Shown here in pieces: positions 1 through 7,697 of a stretch of DNA of 43,292 nt. Numbering within the stretch: position 1 is the first letter of the stretch; each line of letters starts with the position of its first letter. A program made the position numbers and the translations under genes. Origin of the DNA: Coriobacteriales bacterium (GTDB lineage Bacteria > Actinomycetota > Coriobacteriia > Coriobacteriales > UBA8131); assembly GCA_031264075.1 (NCBI GenBank), contig JAISEO010000098.1, positions 1 through 43,292 on the forward strand, given 5' to 3'. Below the pieces are notes generated by a model, which did not search any database, had not been told where the DNA came from, and saw nothing but the letters and a program-made list of their open reading frames with translations.

Positions 1-164
1 TAAGGAAGCGATGATTAATGCTTGTATACCAGATTTCGAGTCAGTTTGCCTCAGGTCTGTTTGTGCGCGTGATGCCACTACTTGCGGTAATGGCGTCATG
101 CGTACGGGCAGAGCTGAGACAAACTGGCCGAAAGATGGTGTGCAATGATTAATCATCGCTTCTA
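1..164 (+). repeat. Long imperfect palindrome / candidate hairpin RNA
   Basis: Positions 5-19 (GAAGCGATGATTAAT) are the exact reverse complement of 148-162. Inside them the arms keep pairing: 22-31 with 136-145, 34-38 with 129-133, 40-48 with 120-128, 50-54 with 114-118, 56-77 with 91-112 and 79-82 with 86-89, around a loop at 83-85. By hand I count about 70 pairs, of which 10 are G.U if the plus strand is the RNA. The minus-strand RNA would have only 2 G.U and about 10 A.C mismatches in the same places. TA flanks both ends (1-2 and 163-164). The right end coincides with the stop codon of the neighbouring minus-strand gene. It could be a MITE-like palindromic element, a structured RNA or an outsized terminator. 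The structure is clear; the function is unknown. Confidence 0.75.
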
Positions 165-1319
165 GCTCAACTTAATATGAAGCATCCGCTGGGATGGCTG
201 TCTGTCCGGGGTATTTTCCACGCCGCTGGCACCATAGTCATAGGTGTAGCTGATCTCAAAGCTCGTGGGCGGCTGTTGTGACACGAGCGCCCCGCTCCAT
301 TCCCGTGTTTCCTTCCGTATCTTCCTGATGCTGGCCTCGGGATCCACATAGGTCGTGTACTCCTCCTCGGTGAGCGTGGGATAGGCCAGCTCCGGTGCCA
401 CCGTTGCTCCGGCGGAGTTGAGCGTGGCGACAAAGGAGTTTCTGGTTGCCACCAGATCGGCAAAGCTCGAGATGGGAAAATCGAGGAGGTTCATGGAGCT
501 GGTAAAGTACAGCTCCACTGTTACGCCGGACTCATCCAGGCTCAGATAGATATTCTGGACCTGCGTGGCACCCACCTGGCTTGCCTGGTCGGGGGAGGCA
601 TAGCTGATGGTCACCACCTGCGCGATGGCGGAAGCTGTCTCGTCTGTTGCCGCGTCGGCGGGCTCGTCGGTGGGGTTCTCTGCTGGGGTATCCGCTGGAT
701 TGTCCGTTTCTGAAGTGGATGTATCGGTATCTGCAACCGTGTCGGTCTTGGTTATGGTGTAGCCTGAGCCCAACTGGGCCACCACCGACTCCGGTGTCTT
801 TCCAAACATCTGAGTCAGCTGAGGCATCGCTATGGTCTGCGTAGTGCCTCGGTCCTGGATTTCGTCCTCGTCCGTAAGGACGATGGTCGGCTGCGTAACG
901 GTGCCGGTGACCTGCGCAATGTTGACATAGTAGTAGAGCGCGGTGCCGGCAGTACCGAGCAGTATCACCAGGAGCAGCACGATGATGACGATGAGAACGC
1001 GCTTGATACGTTTTGCCCGGGCGAGCTTCTCCTCAGGGATAGGCGTAAAGTGCGCGGGAAGCGCTGGCTCGTTGGCATCTGTCTGCTCTGTTGTGGGTTC
1101 GAGGGAAGCCTCGTCCCGGGCGTTCTCACCCTGGGCGTTCTGGCTGTTGCTAGCCTGCTCACCGGCATCGGATGAGGAGGCGTCGGGGGCATCGGAAGCG
1201 GCAGAATCCGGCGCAGGAGCAGCAGCAAGCGGCGCAGTAGCAGCTTCCTGGGCTTCCCCCGCTTCGTTGGCGGGATCGCTGGCAGGACTGTCTTCGTAGT
1301 GCTGTTCGTCTTTGCTCAC
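162..1319 (-). CDS. Single-pass membrane protein of unknown function, last gene of the his operon
   Basis: A 385-residue protein that I do not recognise. Residues 1-90 are acidic and rich in Ala, Ser, Asp and Glu (disordered). Residues 106-132 form one clear transmembrane helix preceded by basic RAKRIKR, so the N-terminus should be cytoplasmic and the rest outside. A Thr/Asp/Pro-rich linker (about 193-230) splits the outer part. The remainder looks like a folded alpha/beta domain ending HIKLS. The GTG start overlaps the hisE stop in GTGA, so it is translationally coupled to hisE and probably co-transcribed with the his genes. Nothing in it resembles a histidine enzyme. It may be a lineage-specific surface or regulatory protein that shares the transcript. 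The coding call is sure; the function is unknown. Confidence 0.85.
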   Translation of the reverse strand: MSKDEQHYEDSPASDPANEAGEAQEAATAPLAAAPAPDSAASDAPDASSSDAGEQASNSQNAQGENARDEASLEPTTEQTDANEPALPAHFTPIPEEKLARAKRIKRVLIVIIVLLLVILLGTAGTALYYYVNIAQVTGTVTQPTIVLTDEDEIQDRGTTQTIAMPQLTQMFGKTPESVVAQLGSGYTITKTDTVADTDTSTSETDNPADTPAENPTDEPADAATDETASAIAQVVTISYASPDQASQVGATQVQNIYLSLDESGVTVELYFTSSMNLLDFPISSFADLVATRNSFVATLNSAGATVAPELAYPTLTEEEYTTYVDPEASIRKIRKETREWSGALVSQQPPTSFEISYTYDYGASGVENTPDRQPSQRMLHIKLS

Positions 1320-1705
1320 ACTTGTCTCCGTTGGTCCTGAGTCTCCGCTGGCAGGTCGGTTGCGCTGGCCCTGGGCTTACGATATGCCTGAGGCATACGA
1401 GCGTCAAGCTCTCCCGCTAACTCGTCTGCGCTGACACCCGTGCGCTCCAGCACAACCAGCAGGTGATAGAGGAGGTCGGCCGCTTCATACCGAATATGGT
1501 CATGGCTCTGGTCTTTGACCGCCATGACAAGCTCGGTACCCTCCTCGCCAATCTTCTTAAGCAGCTGATCCAGATTGCCCTTGAGCAGTTTGGCCGTGTA
1601 CGACGTGGCAGGATCGGCAGTGCTGCGCTCATGTATGACGCCGGTAAGCAGCTCAAGTGTGTGGCCAAGATTCCCCGGCTGTACATCGGGCGTTGCCTCA
1701 CCCAT
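1316..1705 (-). CDS. hisE: Phosphoribosyl-ATP pyrophosphatase HisE
   Basis: Hydrolyses phosphoribosyl-ATP to phosphoribosyl-AMP and pyrophosphate, the second step of histidine synthesis, in the cytoplasm. The 129-residue protein shows the family's all-alpha MazG-like core: KIGEEGTELVMAVKD supplies the metal-binding acidic helix and YEAADLLYHLLVVL the second acidic helix. The C-terminal 25 residues are a basic/polar tail beyond the usual domain. HisE is separate here rather than fused to HisI, which lies just upstream with a 114-bp gap. That gap has no other gene in it. The ATG at 1705 is the only good start; further upstream the frame lacks family-like sequence. The stop overlaps the next gene's GTG. 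Confidence 0.95.
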   Translation of the reverse strand: MGEATPDVQPGNLGHTLELLTGVIHERSTADPATSYTAKLLKGNLDQLLKKIGEEGTELVMAVKDQSHDHIRYEAADLLYHLLVVLERTGVSADELAGELDARMPQAYRKPRASATDLPAETQDQRRQV

Positions 1706-1819
1706 GAGCGTTCTCGCGTCTCCCTGTGTCCGCTGCGGAGCGCACGCCCGCGGGACTTCTGTTGCCTGCTCTCGCTTCTGTCGCTACTCGTTGCCGATAC
1801 CGCAAGGGCTTCCATTCTC

Positions 1820-2155
1820 CTACAGGGGCAGCGTTTGGTAAAAACAGCTGCGCCTACCCGTATGACACGCAAAACCGGGGCTGTCTACCTGTACGAGAAG
1901 ACAGTCCTGGTCGCAGTCATAGTATATCGCTTTAACGCTCTGGTAGTTGCCGCTTGTTGCTCCTTTGTTCCATAGCTCCCTGCGGCTTCTACTCCAAAAC
2001 CAGGTGGTGGCGGTGCTCCTCGTCAGCTCGAGTGCCTCAGGGTTCATCCACGCCAGCATGAGGACTTCTTTGCTGTCGTACTGCTGGACAATAGCGGGAA
2101 TAAGCCCCTGGTCGTTATAGACGAGGCTGTCTGGGGCGAAGTCTTCTGTGTGCAT
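1820..2155 (-). CDS. hisI: Phosphoribosyl-AMP cyclohydrolase HisI
   Basis: Opens the adenine ring of phosphoribosyl-AMP (third step of histidine synthesis) using zinc. In 111 residues it carries the complete family signature: LMLAWMN, then [16 protein letters not shown], the metal-binding [11 protein letters not shown], and the C-terminal [10 protein letters not shown] with its zinc-ligand cysteines. Length fits the stand-alone cyclohydrolase, without a HisE domain. An AAGGAA ribosome-binding site sits a few bases before the ATG at 2155. It follows hisF by 15 bp in the same operon. Confidence 0.96.
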
Positions 2156-2170
2156 GGTGGTTCCTTCCGC

Positions 2171-2941
2171 TCATAGCTTCTCACGAACCGGGATGCCCTG
2201 CGTTGCGAGATAGGCCTTGACCTCCCGGATCCGGAACTCCCCGAAGTGAAACACGCTCGCCGCCAATACGGCATCTGCCTCTCCCTCGAGTATACCCTCG
2301 GCAAAGTGCTCCAGCGTGCCCACGCCGCCGCTCGCAATGACGGGGATGTCCACCTCACGAGCTACGGCGCGCGTGAGGGCAATATCAAAGCCGGCCTTTG
2401 AACCATCGCGGTCCATGGACGTGAGCAGTATCTCTCCGGCTCCCCTTCTGGCAGCCTCCGCTGCCCAGGCCACCGCGTCCAGGCTGGTCTCCTCGCGTCC
2501 GCCGCTCAGGTACACCTGCCAGCTGTCCACACCGGGCTTACGCTGCTTGGCATCGATTGCGCAGATGACCGCCTGGGTGCCAAACAGAGCCGCCATCGTC
2601 GTGAGCAGCTCCGGGCTGCGCACAGCCGCGGAGTTGACGGAGATCTTGTCGGCGCCTGCCGCTATCATCGCGCGTACGTCGGTGAGGGCCTTGAATCCGC
2701 CGCCAACGGTGTAGGGGATGTGAAGTTCTTCTGACGCTCTGGCTGCCATGGCAACCGTGGTTTTGCGGCCCTCATGCGTGGCGTTGATGTCGAGGAATAC
2801 CACCTCATCGGCACCCTCGGCGTCGTAGCTGGCCGCCAGCTCCACCGGGTCGCCCGCATCGCGGAGATTGACGAAGTTGACGCCCTTGACCACACGCCCA
2901 TCCTTGACGTCCAGGCAGGGTATGACACGTTTAGCGAGCAT
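2171..2941 (-). CDS. hisF: Imidazole glycerol phosphate synthase cyclase subunit HisF
   Basis: Uses ammonia channelled from HisH to convert PRFAR into imidazole glycerol phosphate and AICAR. The 256-residue (beta/alpha)8 barrel begins [20 protein letters not shown], with the catalytic Asp11. The second catalytic Asp is in VICAIDAK, and phosphate is held by VGGGFK and ASGGVG. The ATG at 2941 overlaps the end of hisA by 11 bp, so the two barrel enzymes are translationally coupled. Nothing unusual is seen. Confidence 0.98.
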
Positions 2942-3683
2942 GGTCCTCCCCTTCTTCCTCTTCCGCCACTACCCGCAAGGCCTCCTCTACGGTAAAACTC
3001 TGCTCATAGAGCGCTCTTCCCACAATGATGCCCTCCACGACGGAGCTGCCGAGACGCGCGAGCGAGCGGATGTCGTCCAGCGTGGAGATGCCGCCCGAGG
3101 CCGTCACGGCAAAGCCGGCAAGGCCGGCAATGCGCCGGTAGGCCTCCGCGTCGATACCGGTCTGCATGCCGTCACGGCTGATGTCGGTATACACCAGGTG
3201 AGAAAAGCCCCGCTCCCCAAGCGAGCAGACGAGCTGCCGGGCACCGAGGCCCGAGCCCTCCTGCCAGCCCTCTACCGCGGCCTCGCCGTCTCGGGCGTCC
3301 ACTCCCGCGGCAATGAGGCTACCGTAGCGCGTAACGGCCTCGCTCGCAAGGGCGCGGTCACGCACGAGGGCGGTGCCCAGCACGATGCGGCTCACGCCGG
3401 CCTCGCTCAGGCACCTGATATGCTCGAGGGTGCGCACTCCCCCGCCCGCCTCTATGCTAAGGCCCGTGGCCTCCCTGATAGCGGCGATGGTGTCGAGCTG
3501 GCAGGGCACACCGCTGCGCGCGCCCTCCAGGTCCACGACATGCACCCAGGTCGCTCCCGCGGCGGCAAACTCACGGGCCTGCTCCAGCGGGCTTACCCGA
3601 TACACCGTAACCGCTTCGTAGTTGCCGCGCTTAAGACGCACGACCCTGTTATCGAGGATGTCTATGGCGGGAAGAAGCTTCAT
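2931..3683 (-). CDS. hisA: ProFAR isomerase HisA
   Basis: Isomerises ProFAR to PRFAR by an Amadori rearrangement. It is a 250-residue (beta/alpha)8 barrel starting [20 protein letters not shown] with catalytic Asp8. The second acidic residue lies in [10 protein letters not shown], and the phosphate-binding loops are EAGGGVR and TASGGIS. Although TrpF can share this barrel in some Actinobacteria (PriA), I cannot tell from the sequence whether this enzyme is bifunctional. The start is supported by AAGGAAG about 8 bases upstream. It lies between hisH (13 bp gap) and hisF (11 bp overlap). Confidence 0.95.
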
Positions 3684-3696
3684 CCTGGCACTTCCT

Positions 3697-4434
3697 TCAG
3701 TCGTGTCCGGTCTGTGCGAGCCGCACGAAGTTCTTCATGACGGCGAGGCCCGCATCAGACGACTTCTCCGGGTGGAACTGTACCCCATAGGCCCTGCCTT
3801 TGCAGACCGCGGCCGGCATGACACGCGCATGGGTAACGGTGGCCACGACGTCTCTGGGCTCAGCAGGCTCGCAGCCGTAGGAATGGGTGAAGTAGAAGTG
3901 CGAGCCGCCGGCTACGCCGTCAAACAGAGGGCTCGTGCCTTGGCGCACCTCGCCTGTGTGGACGTGCGAATACGCGGTCTGCGCTGGAGGGGCTGTGCCG
4001 GTGCTGTCCCGCACGTCCGCGACATAGCTCACCTGGTTCCACCCCACATGCGGAACCTTATAGCCTGCGCCCCTGCTGTCGGTACTCGCGATGCGCGTAC
4101 AGCGGCCGGAGAGGATGCCCAGGCCCTCGGCCCAGCTGCCCTCCGGCATACCCTCGTTGCCGTATTCAAACAGCAGCTGCATGCCCAAACAGATGCCGAG
4201 GAAGGGCACGCCCGCGTCCAGGCGCTCTGAGAGTGCCTGCATCTGACCGGTTGCGAGCATGACTTCTGAGGCATCGGCAAAGGAGCCTACTCCCGGCAGC
4301 ACCAGAGCGTCGGCGCTGCGGATAGCTGCCGCGTCCGCGCTGATGAGCGCATGCGCGCCGGCAAGCTCCAGGCCCTTCTGGACGCTTCGCAGGTTGCCCT
4401 TGCTGTAATCGACGACGACGCAGGTCAAGGGCAT
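3697..4434 (-). CDS. hisH: Imidazole glycerol phosphate synthase glutaminase subunit HisH
   Basis: Hydrolyses glutamine and passes ammonia to HisF. The class I amidotransferase triad is visible: Cys82 in GICLGMQLLFE, and His221 and Glu223 in VQFHPEKS. At 245 residues it is longer than the usual 200 or so. The extra length is mostly an insertion of about 28 residues (about 137-165, VADVRDSTGTAPPAQ and following) between PHVGWNQVS and the SPLFDGV segment, on the outside of the fold. The ATG shares one base with the hisB stop (TGATG) and has an AAGGAAG ribosome-binding site. The active site is intact, so function is expected to be normal. Confidence 0.96.
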   Translation of the reverse strand: MPLTCVVVDYSKGNLRSVQKGLELAGAHALISADAAAIRSADALVLPGVGSFADASEVMLATGQMQALSERLDAGVPFLGICLGMQLLFEYGNEGMPEGSWAEGLGILSGRCTRIASTDSRGAGYKVPHVGWNQVSYVADVRDSTGTAPPAQTAYSHVHTGEVRQGTSPLFDGVAGGSHFYFTHSYGCEPAEPRDVVATVTHARVMPAAVCKGRAYGVQFHPEKSSDAGLAVMKNFVRLAQTGHD

Positions 4435-5033
4435 CAGAGGCTTCCTTTTGTCGAGGGCACGCTCTGGCCTCTCCGCGGGTCGAGGGCCACCGCCTGGGCC
4501 AGGGCGCGTGCCACGGCCTTGGCGGCCGCTTCTATGATGTGGTGGGCGTTCTCGCCTGCAAGCTCGCGCACGTGAAGCGTCAGGGCCGCGTTGGACGCCA
4601 GGGCAATGAGAAACTCCTTCATGAGCGAGCTGTCAAAACTGCCGATGAACTCAATGGGAAGCTCAACGCTCCAGTGCAGCTGTCCCCTGCCTGAGAGGTC
4701 TACCGCCGCCAGGACGAGGGCCTCGTCCATGGGCACCAGGGCCTCGCCAAAACGGGTGATGCCGCGCTTGCTGCCCAGCGCTTCGGCAAGGGCCGTGCCG
4801 AGCACTATGCCCACGTCCTCCACCGTGTGATGGGCATCGACCTCCAGATCGCCGATGGCCCTGATGGTGAGGTCAAAGAGGCCGTGGCGGCCCATGGCAT
4901 TGAGCATGTGGTCAAAGAAGGGTATGCCCGTGCTGATGTCGCAGCTTCCGCTGCCGTCCAGATTGAGCGCCAGCGTAATATCGGTCTCGGTGGTGCGCCT
5001 TTCAACGGTGGCGGAGCGGCTGGTCGTATCCAT
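4434..5033 (-). CDS. hisB: Imidazoleglycerol-phosphate dehydratase HisB
   Basis: Dehydrates imidazole glycerol phosphate to imidazole acetol phosphate. At 199 residues it is the monofunctional form, without a histidinol-phosphatase domain. The diagnostic metal-binding histidine motifs are both present (HHTVEDVGI and ENAHHIIEA), along with the FFDHMLNAMGRHG segment. AGGAGAAC precedes the ATG at 5033. Since no HisN or PHP-type histidinol phosphatase is seen in this window, that step must be encoded elsewhere. Confidence 0.97.
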   Translation of the reverse strand: MDTTSRSATVERRTTETDITLALNLDGSGSCDISTGIPFFDHMLNAMGRHGLFDLTIRAIGDLEVDAHHTVEDVGIVLGTALAEALGSKRGITRFGEALVPMDEALVLAAVDLSGRGQLHWSVELPIEFIGSFDSSLMKEFLIALASNAALTLHVRELAGENAHHIIEAAAKAVARALAQAVALDPRRGQSVPSTKGSL

Positions 5034-5078
5034 GGGCTTGTTCTCCTTTGTCTGGGCTCAGGGCGATGCGCCGGGTAC

Positions 5079-6224
5079 TCATGCAGGAGTATCCAGAGCT
5101 GCGGAAGGCGGGGCGGTGGCCTGGTCTTTGCTGAGGATGGTAGCGAGGGCCTCGAGGAAAGCGTCGTTTTCCTGCGGCGTGCCCATGCTCACCCTCAGGC
5201 AGCTGGCGAGGCCCGGCATGAGGCTGAGATCCCGCACGAGTATGCCGTAGCCGTCGTAGAGTCTTTGCCAGACCTCGTGGGCAGCCGGCACGCGAAACAG
5301 CAGGAAATTCGCCTCACTCGGTGCCACGAAGAGACCCAGACCGAGCTGCCCGAGGGCCTTCGCGACGCGCTCCCGCTCGGAGTTGCTGTGGGCAATGGCG
5401 GCGAGCGTCTCGGCTTCTTCCTCCAGGGCCGCGAGGGCCGCGAGGGCCGCGAGCGTGTCTACAGAATAGGGCTGGCGAACCTTCCGGAGCTCTCCTGCTA
5501 TCTCCTCGCTCGCCACGAGATACCCGATGCGCAGGCCGGCCAGACCATAGGCCTTGGAGAAGGTGCGCAGCAGGGCCAGATTGGCGTTGTTCCTGAGAAG
5601 CGGCGTGGCATCGTAGCTGGGATGGGCAAACTCGACATAGGCCTGATCGATGAGCACGACCGCGTCGGTGGCATCCAAAAGCTCCTGTATAAAACTCAGC
5701 GTGAGGCAGTCGCCCGTGGGATTGTTGGGCGAGGTAAGCACGACGAGGTCCGGATTGCTGGCGCTGAGCTGCTGCAGGATGGCCTCCTCATGCACCCGGA
5801 AGTCAAGGAGCCCCTCGGGGCTGATGCCGCTTGCGCGGGGCACCTCAAGCAGCGCCGTACGCGTAAGAACGGCGTTGGTGTGGTAGGCCGAGAAGGTCGG
5901 CGGTGCGGTGAGCACGGTGCGCCCGGCGCCGCCGTAGGCCAAACAGAGGTTAAAGAGCAGCTCATCGCCGCCGTTCCCGAGTACCACACAGGCGCGGGGC
6001 ACATCGAGCCTGTGGGCCAGTGCAGTACACAGCTCAAGACCCAGGGGGTCTGGGTAGCGGTACAGCGGCTCTGAGTCCAGCGCGTTTTTGAGGGCCAGCT
6101 TTGCCGCCGCCGGCATACCATACGGGTTCTCATTGGCATTAAGACCGATGCGCGCGGACAGATACCGGGGATCATAGGGCTCGAGATCCCGGAGGTGTTC
6201 TGCTGCTGCGCGTACGGTGTGCAT
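5079..6224 (-). CDS. hisC: Histidinol-phosphate aminotransferase HisC
   Basis: PLP-dependent transfer of an amino group from glutamate to imidazole acetol phosphate. It is a fold-type I aminotransferase of 381 residues with LNANENPYG near the start, LTSPNNPTGD, and the PLP lysine at about 224 in RTFSKAYGLAGLRIGY. A run of Ala-Ala-Leu repeats (about 265-280) extends one helix. The ATG at 6224 has GAGGAG upstream. A second copy of this ribosome-binding site, start codon and first eight codons occurs about 150 bp further upstream, next to an interspersed repeat. The enzyme itself is intact. Confidence 0.96.
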   Translation of the reverse strand: MHTVRAAAEHLRDLEPYDPRYLSARIGLNANENPYGMPAAAKLALKNALDSEPLYRYPDPLGLELCTALAHRLDVPRACVVLGNGGDELLFNLCLAYGGAGRTVLTAPPTFSAYHTNAVLTRTALLEVPRASGISPEGLLDFRVHEEAILQQLSASNPDLVVLTSPNNPTGDCLTLSFIQELLDATDAVVLIDQAYVEFAHPSYDATPLLRNNANLALLRTFSKAYGLAGLRIGYLVASEEIAGELRKVRQPYSVDTLAALAALAALEEEAETLAAIAHSNSERERVAKALGQLGLGLFVAPSEANFLLFRVPAAHEVWQRLYDGYGILVRDLSLMPGLASCLRVSMGTPQENDAFLEALATILSKDQATAPPSAALDTPA

Positions 6225-6242
6225 GTGTATTGTGCTCCTCGC
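6193..6242 (-). repeat. Downstream copy of duplicated hisC start region
   Basis: This 50-bp stretch holds the ribosome-binding site, ATG and first codons of hisC. It matches 6345-6394 at 44 of 50 positions, counted by hand. The two copies are 152 bp apart and flank a 102-bp insert containing an interspersed repeat. Confidence 0.85.
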
Positions 6243-6259
6243 TTCATTCCTCTATTACT

Positions 6260-6376
6260 TCAAACAGCAAGCGAGAGTGAAACAATCCGAAGGTTGAGAA
6301 AAGAACTGGATTGCCGCGTCGCTTCGCTCCTCGCAATGACAAAAAGGTGTTCTGCTGTTGCGCGTACGGTGTGCAT
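6260..6376 (-). pseudogene. Duplicated hisC start running into repeat (38-codon remnant)
   Basis: The upstream copy of the hisC start reads MHTVRATAEHL, nearly identical to the real HisC N-terminus MHTVRAAAEHL. It then runs into FVIARSEATRQSS, the translation of the interspersed repeat, and stops after 38 codons. It keeps a GAGGAG ribosome-binding site, so it could be translated as a short peptide ahead of hisC. Most simply it is a by-product of the duplication. Confidence 0.6.
6308..6340 (-). repeat. Interspersed repeat of the GTCATTGCGAGGAGCGAAGC type
   Basis: Read on the minus strand this is GTCATTGCGAGGAGCGAAGC followed by GACGCGGCAATCC. The motif recurs in intergenic regions of many unrelated bacterial genomes and is often mis-translated as VIARSEATKQS-like peptides. 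Here it is in the hisD-hisC gap. No transposase is nearby. Recognition is from memory of the motif; a genome-wide search would show the copy number. Confidence 0.75.
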
Positions 6377-6394
6377 GCTGCTCGTGCTCCTCGC
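6345..6394 (-). repeat. Upstream copy of duplicated hisC start region
   Basis: Partner of 6193-6242 (44 of 50 identical). It lies just downstream of the hisD stop and includes a full ribosome-binding site plus ATG. Confidence 0.85.
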
Positions 6395-6398
6395 GTGG

Positions 6399-7697
6399 TT
6401 ACTCGTCCTCGAAGAGCTCAAAGCGGGCGCGCACCGACTTTCCGTGTGCCCAGAGACCTTCTGCCGCCGCAAGGGTGAGGATGGTTTGCTCGTCCTTTTT
6501 GAGCGCCGAGAACGAATAGGACACGACGTTGGAAAACTTGATGAAGTCGTCCACGCTGAGTGGGCTGGAGAAGCGCGCGGTACCGCTCGTGGGCAGCGTG
6601 TGATTGGGGCCGGCAACGTAGTCGCCCACCGTGGTGGGGCTCCAGGTTCCGATAAAGATGGCGCCGGCGTTGTCAATGAGGCCAAGCAGGTCCAGGGCGT
6701 CTGAGCACTGTATCTCCAGATGCTCCGGGGCAATGGCATTAACGGCTCCGACGGCGGTGGAAAGATCGGGTGCCACAAAGATGATGCCGTTGTTTTCGAG
6801 TGCCGCGAGCGTCGTTTCCGCACGAGGCGAGTCCTCGACAAAGGCGGCAATCTCGTCAGACACCTCCTCAACAAGATCCGGATCGGTGGTGACGAGATAA
6901 CAGGCCGCAGACGGGTCGTGCTCCGCCTGCGCCATGAGATCGAGAGCAAGCAGGGCGGGCTCCGCGCTGTCATCGGCAAGGATGGCCAGCTCCGAGGGCC
7001 CGGCGAGCAGATCGATGCCCACATCCCCACTCACCGCGCGCTTGGCCGCTGCCACATAGGCATTGCCCGGGCCGACTATCTTGTCTACCGCTGCGATGCT
7101 CTCTGTGCCATAGGCCAGCGCCGCAATGGCCTGCGCACCGCCCACGGCGTATACCTCGGTGACACCCGCAATCTGAGCGGCCGTGAGGAGGAGGGGGTCT
7201 ACCTGGCCTTTGGAATCCGGCGGCGTTACCATGACAATGCGGCGCACCCCGGCTACGCGGGCCGGCAGGGCACACATCAGAACCGTGGAAGGATAGAGCG
7301 CCCTCCCGCCGGGAACATAGATGCCCACGCTGTCCAGGGGGCTGACCTTGGTGCCGATAAGTGCCCCGTCGTCGCGGGCGTAGAGCAGGCCGTCGCGCCG
7401 CTGCCGCTCGTGGAAGTCGAAGATACTCTGGCCGGACTCATGGAGGGCCTTGACGACATCTTGATTGGCCCGCTTCTGAGCGGTCTGCATCTCCTGCTCG
7501 GACACGGCGAGTTCTTTGAGCGCAGCGCCGTCAAACTCCTGCGTGTAATCAAACAGGGCCTGGTCGCCCCGCTCGCGTACGGTTTGGATGATCTCGCTTA
7601 CCGCTGAGACGATCTGTGGCTCAAAGACCACCCCGCGCCTGATGAGGTCTGCGGCGGGCTTCTCGCCCTGTTCCAGTGTTACTACTCGCATGCTCAC
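6399..7697 (-). CDS. hisD: Histidinol dehydrogenase HisD
   Basis: Oxidises histidinol to histidine in two NAD-dependent steps using zinc. The 432 residues show the family landmarks: IYVPGGRALYPSTVLM, VGPGNAYVAAAKR, DLLAGPSELAILAD, AEHDPSAACYLVT, and the catalytic Glu/His pair in AIAPEHLEI. The first possible start is GTG at 7697; the ATG two codons later (7691) is equally likely and would give 430 residues. The gene is 32 bp downstream of hisG. Between its end and hisC lies the 174-bp gap with the repeat insertion, so hisC and later genes may be expressed differently from hisZGD. Confidence 0.97.
   Translation of the reverse strand: MSMRVVTLEQGEKPAADLIRRGVVFEPQIVSAVSEIIQTVRERGDQALFDYTQEFDGAALKELAVSEQEMQTAQKRANQDVVKALHESGQSIFDFHERQRRDGLLYARDDGALIGTKVSPLDSVGIYVPGGRALYPSTVLMCALPARVAGVRRIVMVTPPDSKGQVDPLLLTAAQIAGVTEVYAVGGAQAIAALAYGTESIAAVDKIVGPGNAYVAAAKRAVSGDVGIDLLAGPSELAILADDSAEPALLALDLMAQAEHDPSAACYLVTTDPDLVEEVSDEIAAFVEDSPRAETTLAALENNGIIFVAPDLSTAVGAVNAIAPEHLEIQCSDALDLLGLIDNAGAIFIGTWSPTTVGDYVAGPNHTLPTSGTARFSSPLSVDDFIKFSNVVSYSFSALKKDEQTILTLAAAEGLWAHGKSVRARFELFEDE

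Follow-up and report, generated by a model that had tools for sequence, protein, structure and literature searches.

Several families of bacterial MITEs, among them ERIC/IRU, YPAL, and Correia/NEMIS, fold as long hairpins (PMC2229807). ERIC, YPAL, and Correia/NEMIS are 100-170 bp in length, carry inverted repeats, and give rise to long RNA hairpins; both filled and empty sites are known for YPAL (PMC2229807; PMC2267715). REPs measure 20-40 bp and bear GTAG/CGTC tags (PMC3733652), and they are linked with RAYT tyrosine transposases (PMC2817692). MITEs that form hairpins occur widely among bacteria, and whether the fold is selected or is a by-product of the palindrome is usually left undecided. 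In this work we analyzed a hairpin at the start of a 43,292-nt stretch of DNA (the window) from a Coriobacteriales bacterium (assembly GCA_031264075.1, contig JAISEO010000098.1; genome G000). The feature is almost certainly a non-autonomous MITE of ~158 bp.

When positions 1-170 of the window were folded, a single continuous hairpin of 70 pairs spanning 4-162 was obtained, in agreement with a preliminary description that had counted about 70 pairs by hand. The plus-strand fold has an energy of -112 kcal/mol (shuffled sequences, -47.5 +/- 3.75; z -17.2; 0 of 200 as low), while the minus-strand fold reaches -79.4 kcal/mol (z -11.0), so that the comparison of strand energies proposed in that description gave unequal values; with DNA parameters the plus strand of the window copy is again the more stable (-55.7 versus -43.4). 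There are 60 Watson-Crick and 10 G.U pairs in the plus fold, and 59 and 2 in the minus fold, which reproduces the earlier hand count of 10 versus 2 exactly. The perfect inverted repeat of 15 bp noted before was located at 5-19 and 148-162. The hairpin had been said to match no nameable RNA family, and Rfam covariance models indeed gave no match to window positions 1-2000 at E <= 1. Table 1 lists the parts of the element and its flanks.

Table 1. Parts of the hairpin element and adjoining features in the window.
Feature	Position	Strand	Basis and remarks
Copy of the element (MITE, almost certainly), near end-to-end hairpin	4-162	+	Folds, genome matches, family search; plus is the G.U-bearing strand
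Left terminal inverted repeat, GGAAGCGATGATTAAT	4-19	+	Sequence and family alignment; degenerate form in the ends of IS5-family IS
Right terminal inverted repeat, reverse complement of 5-19	148-162	-	Sequence
Interior hairpin arms, holding strand-polarized G.U pairs and two-sided covariation	20-147	+	Family counts
Apical stem-loop, GCCACTACTTGCGGTAATGGC	74-94	+	Family alignment
TAA, remnant of the left YTAR target copy	1-3		Comparison with other copies
CTAG, right target-site copy	162-165		Sequence and family flanks; holds the TAG stop of the flanking gene on the minus strand
Flanking gene, 385 aa, ending at the element	162-1319	-	Gene call; a single probable transmembrane stretch seen by eye

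The stop codon of the flanking gene lies at 162-164, which places the hairpin just past the 3' end of the gene and not, as had been suggested, antisense to the end of a membrane-protein gene. On the other side, the first base of the left YTAR target copy would fall past the contig end. The repeat itself caused the contig to break at the left edge of the window, and the true left flank lies beyond that break. Contigs C85, C18, and C14 of the same genome start inside identical copies (100% over 114-119 bases); these identical copies at contig ends indicate recent movement and account for the start of the window exactly at the element. Beyond the element-adjoining gene, the window carries a histidine-biosynthesis cluster recognized by eye (hisE/I, hisF, hisA, hisH, hisB, and hisC-like genes; 1316-6224, minus strand), and a 60-bp direct repeat (83% identical) is found at 6193-6252, at the putative hisC start, and at 6345-6404, 152 bp further upstream.

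A search for a second copy had been recommended, and the 170-bp query detected the element at ~30 distinct places in its own genome, several of them at contig ends; a second species of the genus gave 24 matches, and five further genera gave many. A covariance model built from 25 diverse copies (seven genera) then located copies in 13 of 33 genomes belonging to the same bacterial family; when 120 genomes of the order were searched, just two that lie outside this family gave matches, which were few and weaker. Most of the genomes used are incomplete MAGs. No match to the element was found in the plasmid and phage records searched. Scanning the genome collection with 16-mers lacked the specificity to find copies, most of the matches looking chance-like. 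Sequence differs among the subfamilies and no conserved reading frame was seen in the element; the apical stem-loop ranks with the most strongly conserved parts of the family and is present also in the distant G009 subfamily. Two variants were noticed. In three genera, a second type carries an extra ~55-bp GC-rich stem-loop (CCCACCCCACAAAACTCAGTCGCTTCGCTCCTTCGAGTTTTGCGGGG...) in the left arm at the same insertion point, with the main hairpin mostly kept (L161 at 890-1113, L160, and L145 in G000; L183 in G022; L014 in G006). A short version of ~65 bp (L016, ~1470-1540, G020) retains both ends and the lower stem, and the upper hairpin is absent.

The alignment of extended copies placed the element boundaries at (Y)TA(R)|GG.. 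and ..CC|(Y)TA(R). Across the family the terminal repeats measure 15-18 bp and come in three end subtypes, GGAAGCGATGATTAAT, GGAGACGATGATTAAT, and GGAGGYRCCGATTAATT; the outer helix that they form is paired in 94.5% of the cells. Matches to this end pattern number in the tens per genome, with 0 occurrences in the reversed control. The commonest 4-bp flank is CTAG, and identical 4-bp flanks border 23 of 106 copies, against 9.0 expected by shuffling; the unequal flanks of the remaining copies are probably due to age. Three sites occupied in G000 (L147, L149, and L151) are empty in the sister species G003, with the flanks continuous at or next to the target. The suggestion of a MITE was thus borne out by the many copies, the terminal inverted repeats, the CTAG-type target, and the empty sites, while the proposed TA on both sides was nearly right: the family target is the 4-bp CTAG/YTAR, and the left flank in the window is lost at the contig break. 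At L147 and L149 the TAG within the target CTAG serves as the stop codon of the upstream gene; the window shows the same arrangement with its flanking gene. Copies lying exactly at a gene stop codon were observed at L147, L149, L152, L167, L182, L282, L299, and in the window (162-165); many copies sit at stop codons because the CTAG target contains TAG, and the protein is left intact by the insertion. Genes predicted to end at the edge of the element (-3) were seen on both sides of it. The G022 copies (L184, L185, L186, and L297) often have CCAG or CTGG flanks where others have CTAG, a pattern suggestive of either very-short-patch repair of CTAGG or decay.

The end pattern also flanks IS5-family transposase genes in two genomes of other genera in the same bacterial family (G010:C96 and G006:C21), whose products match NCBIfam transpos_IS5_4 with 207 and 264 bits, respectively. 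Both IS copies begin and finish with CTAGGGAASCACCGATTWA, the DNA similarity between them stops at CTAG on both sides, and a single CTAG in G010 serves both the IS and a MITE-like arm. These IS resemble the element in the outermost ~18 bp and in the CTAG boundaries; they differ from it in being ~1.1-1.4 kb long and encoding a DDE transposase, and no MITE similarity was seen inside their terminal repeats. Neither PF01609, PF13358, nor a homologue of the IS5-family transposase was detected in the G000 assembly, which is 90% complete and has contigs broken at repeats. An IS630 parent, first suggested by the TA/CTAG target, was rejected on the lack of DDE_3 (PF13358) in G000, and the other PF01609 loci considered (L193, L194, and L196) are without matching ends. 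From the matching ends and CTAG boundaries of the IS5-family IS, we infer that an IS5-type transposase very likely moves the element. Such an enzyme would be supplied in trans and would act on the terminal repeats.

Next, we examined how pairing is kept among the 25 copies from seven genera. Of the consensus-structure cells, 96.8% are paired, versus 35.9-45.1% when the partners are slid by 1-3 columns. Two-sided changes were found at 39 of 68 pairs (20.6 +/- 2.5 in shuffles; shared ancestry ignored). The pairing is thus conserved in relatives, a check that the preliminary description had called for, and the ~125-nt interior is maintained as a hairpin via two-sided changes. As this structure was predicted on the same sequences, the strand question was put to a separate, strand-neutral arm-to-arm alignment. 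In 107 copies from 11 genomes it gave 996 G.U on the plus strand versus 301 A.C (equal to G.U on the minus strand), with ancestry ignored and with copies located and oriented by a plus-strand-trained model that could inflate the bias in weak copies; the apical sequence motif, present in most copies, fixes orientation independently of the model. The own genome alone gave 176 G.U versus 28 A.C. In the 25-copy alignment the counts are 236 versus 8 in interior cells and 19 versus 8 in terminal-repeat cells.

Changes were also counted as departures from the Watson-Crick pair within clusters of similar copies, not placed on a tree. Interior changes common to several copies number 84 G.U to 12 A.C, those private to one copy 59:39 (p 0.05; tightest clusters 32:14, p 0.01), and private changes in the terminal repeats 25 G.U to 23 A.C. 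The bias is strongest in propagated changes, weaker in those probably arising after insertion, and absent among private changes in the terminal repeats, which the transposase has to recognize as DNA. When each interior change was collapsed to a single event for a given cluster, site, and arm, the ratio was 91:48 (p 0.0003). The strand bias in favor of plus-strand pairing that had been suspected from one copy is therefore real and family-wide. It suggests that the shape of an RNA (or single-stranded DNA) matters, and plus-strand folding as RNA is, on balance, probably what was selected.

RNA and single-stranded DNA cannot be separated by sequence. The plus strand might instead fold as single-stranded DNA during replication, intergenus transfer, or transposition, with selection on that fold; this alternative we consider improbable. 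In 12 copies folded with DNA parameters the plus strand is indeed more stable, by about 8-19 kcal/mol, and the patchy presence over genera suggests horizontal spread, but the GC skew of the flanks, taken as a proxy for the replication strand, is balanced and shows no bias, so that a replication-strand role was rejected, and single-stranded DNA hairpins are not known from IS5-type transposition. Less probable again is arm-to-arm correction, in which template switching or hairpin repair in replication perfects the palindrome and two-sided changes arise without a selected function. The process is known in general for quasipalindromes, and the terminal repeats too have frequent two-sided changes (at 8 of 13 pairs); it would explain such changes but not the polarity, as it predicts equal numbers of G.U and A.C when copies lie both ways, and the shared interior changes are strongly unequal in copies whose orientation is random. 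Strand-specific mutation, with cytosine deamination of an exposed strand creating the bias without selection, is very unlikely: C>T leads the interior changes (58 collapsed events versus 29 G>A), but A>G exceeds T>C to a similar degree (33 versus 19, p 0.07 alone; 49 versus 20 per copy), so that cytosine deamination alone, raised earlier as a possible whole cause, fails to explain a bias to which both contribute, and the terminal repeats are unbiased and two-sided changes frequent.

We also examined the position of the 107 copies relative to genes, with genes called by a simple codon model. A gene reading into the element follows its plus strand in 38 cases and its minus strand in 47; for genes leaving it the counts are 48 versus 47, and no orientation preference was found. 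A cis role in read-through transcripts was rejected on this result. In view of the same counts, and of the fact that the element abuts the stop codon, the antisense action on the neighboring gene that had been envisaged is not supported.

Taken as a whole, we regard as likely an explanation in which an IS5-moved MITE has had its plus-strand fold selected, most simply as RNA. Single changes to G.U, which leave the plus strand paired, were retained far more often than those giving A.C on that strand; the lineages that multiplied would be those with a folding plus strand, most simply an RNA hairpin in transcripts. Through G.U pairs the RNA would keep its pairing while the DNA palindrome becomes imperfect. 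An imperfect DNA palindrome should lower cruciform formation and nuclease attack. Candidate roles of the folded strand are end protection, RNase III processing, and insulation. It is also conceivable, though doubtful, that the element depends on the plus-strand hairpin in its own life cycle, its transcript or single strand having to fold for spread; a transposase or host factor might, for example, bind the conserved apical loop. The element would then be a DNA transposon in which the shape of an RNA or of single-stranded DNA is under selection, a reading that we offer only tentatively.

A hairpin-forming MITE is a kind of element already known, and as a mobile element this one is ordinary. It shares with REP/REPIN sequences a palindromic, dispersed nature and, probably, mobilization in trans, and differs from them in having terminal inverted repeats and a duplicated target. 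Like ERIC/IRU, YPAL, and Correia/NEMIS, it falls within 100-200 bp, has inverted repeats and a target duplication, and is mostly intergenic; several of those families have TA termini, and their transcripts form long stem-loops (PMC2229807). Unlike ERIC, YPAL, and Correia, it has another sequence and host group and is paired over its whole length. Identity with ERIC was rejected: eight ERIC copies compared by eye have other ends and another apical sequence. The test applied here, in which G.U and A.C are counted at identical pairs and compared between interior and terminal repeats and between shared and private changes, uses sequence only, and it points to one-strand folding selected during the spread of the element and not measurably via its position beside genes. 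The G.U/A.C count may be used likewise for ERIC, YPAL, and others. In the eight ERIC copies it gave 27 G.U versus 15 A.C, with the plus strand more stable by 4-13 kcal/mol (a small sample, ancestry ignored), so that the polarity of the present element, both in the family and in its own genome, is stronger than that of ERIC.
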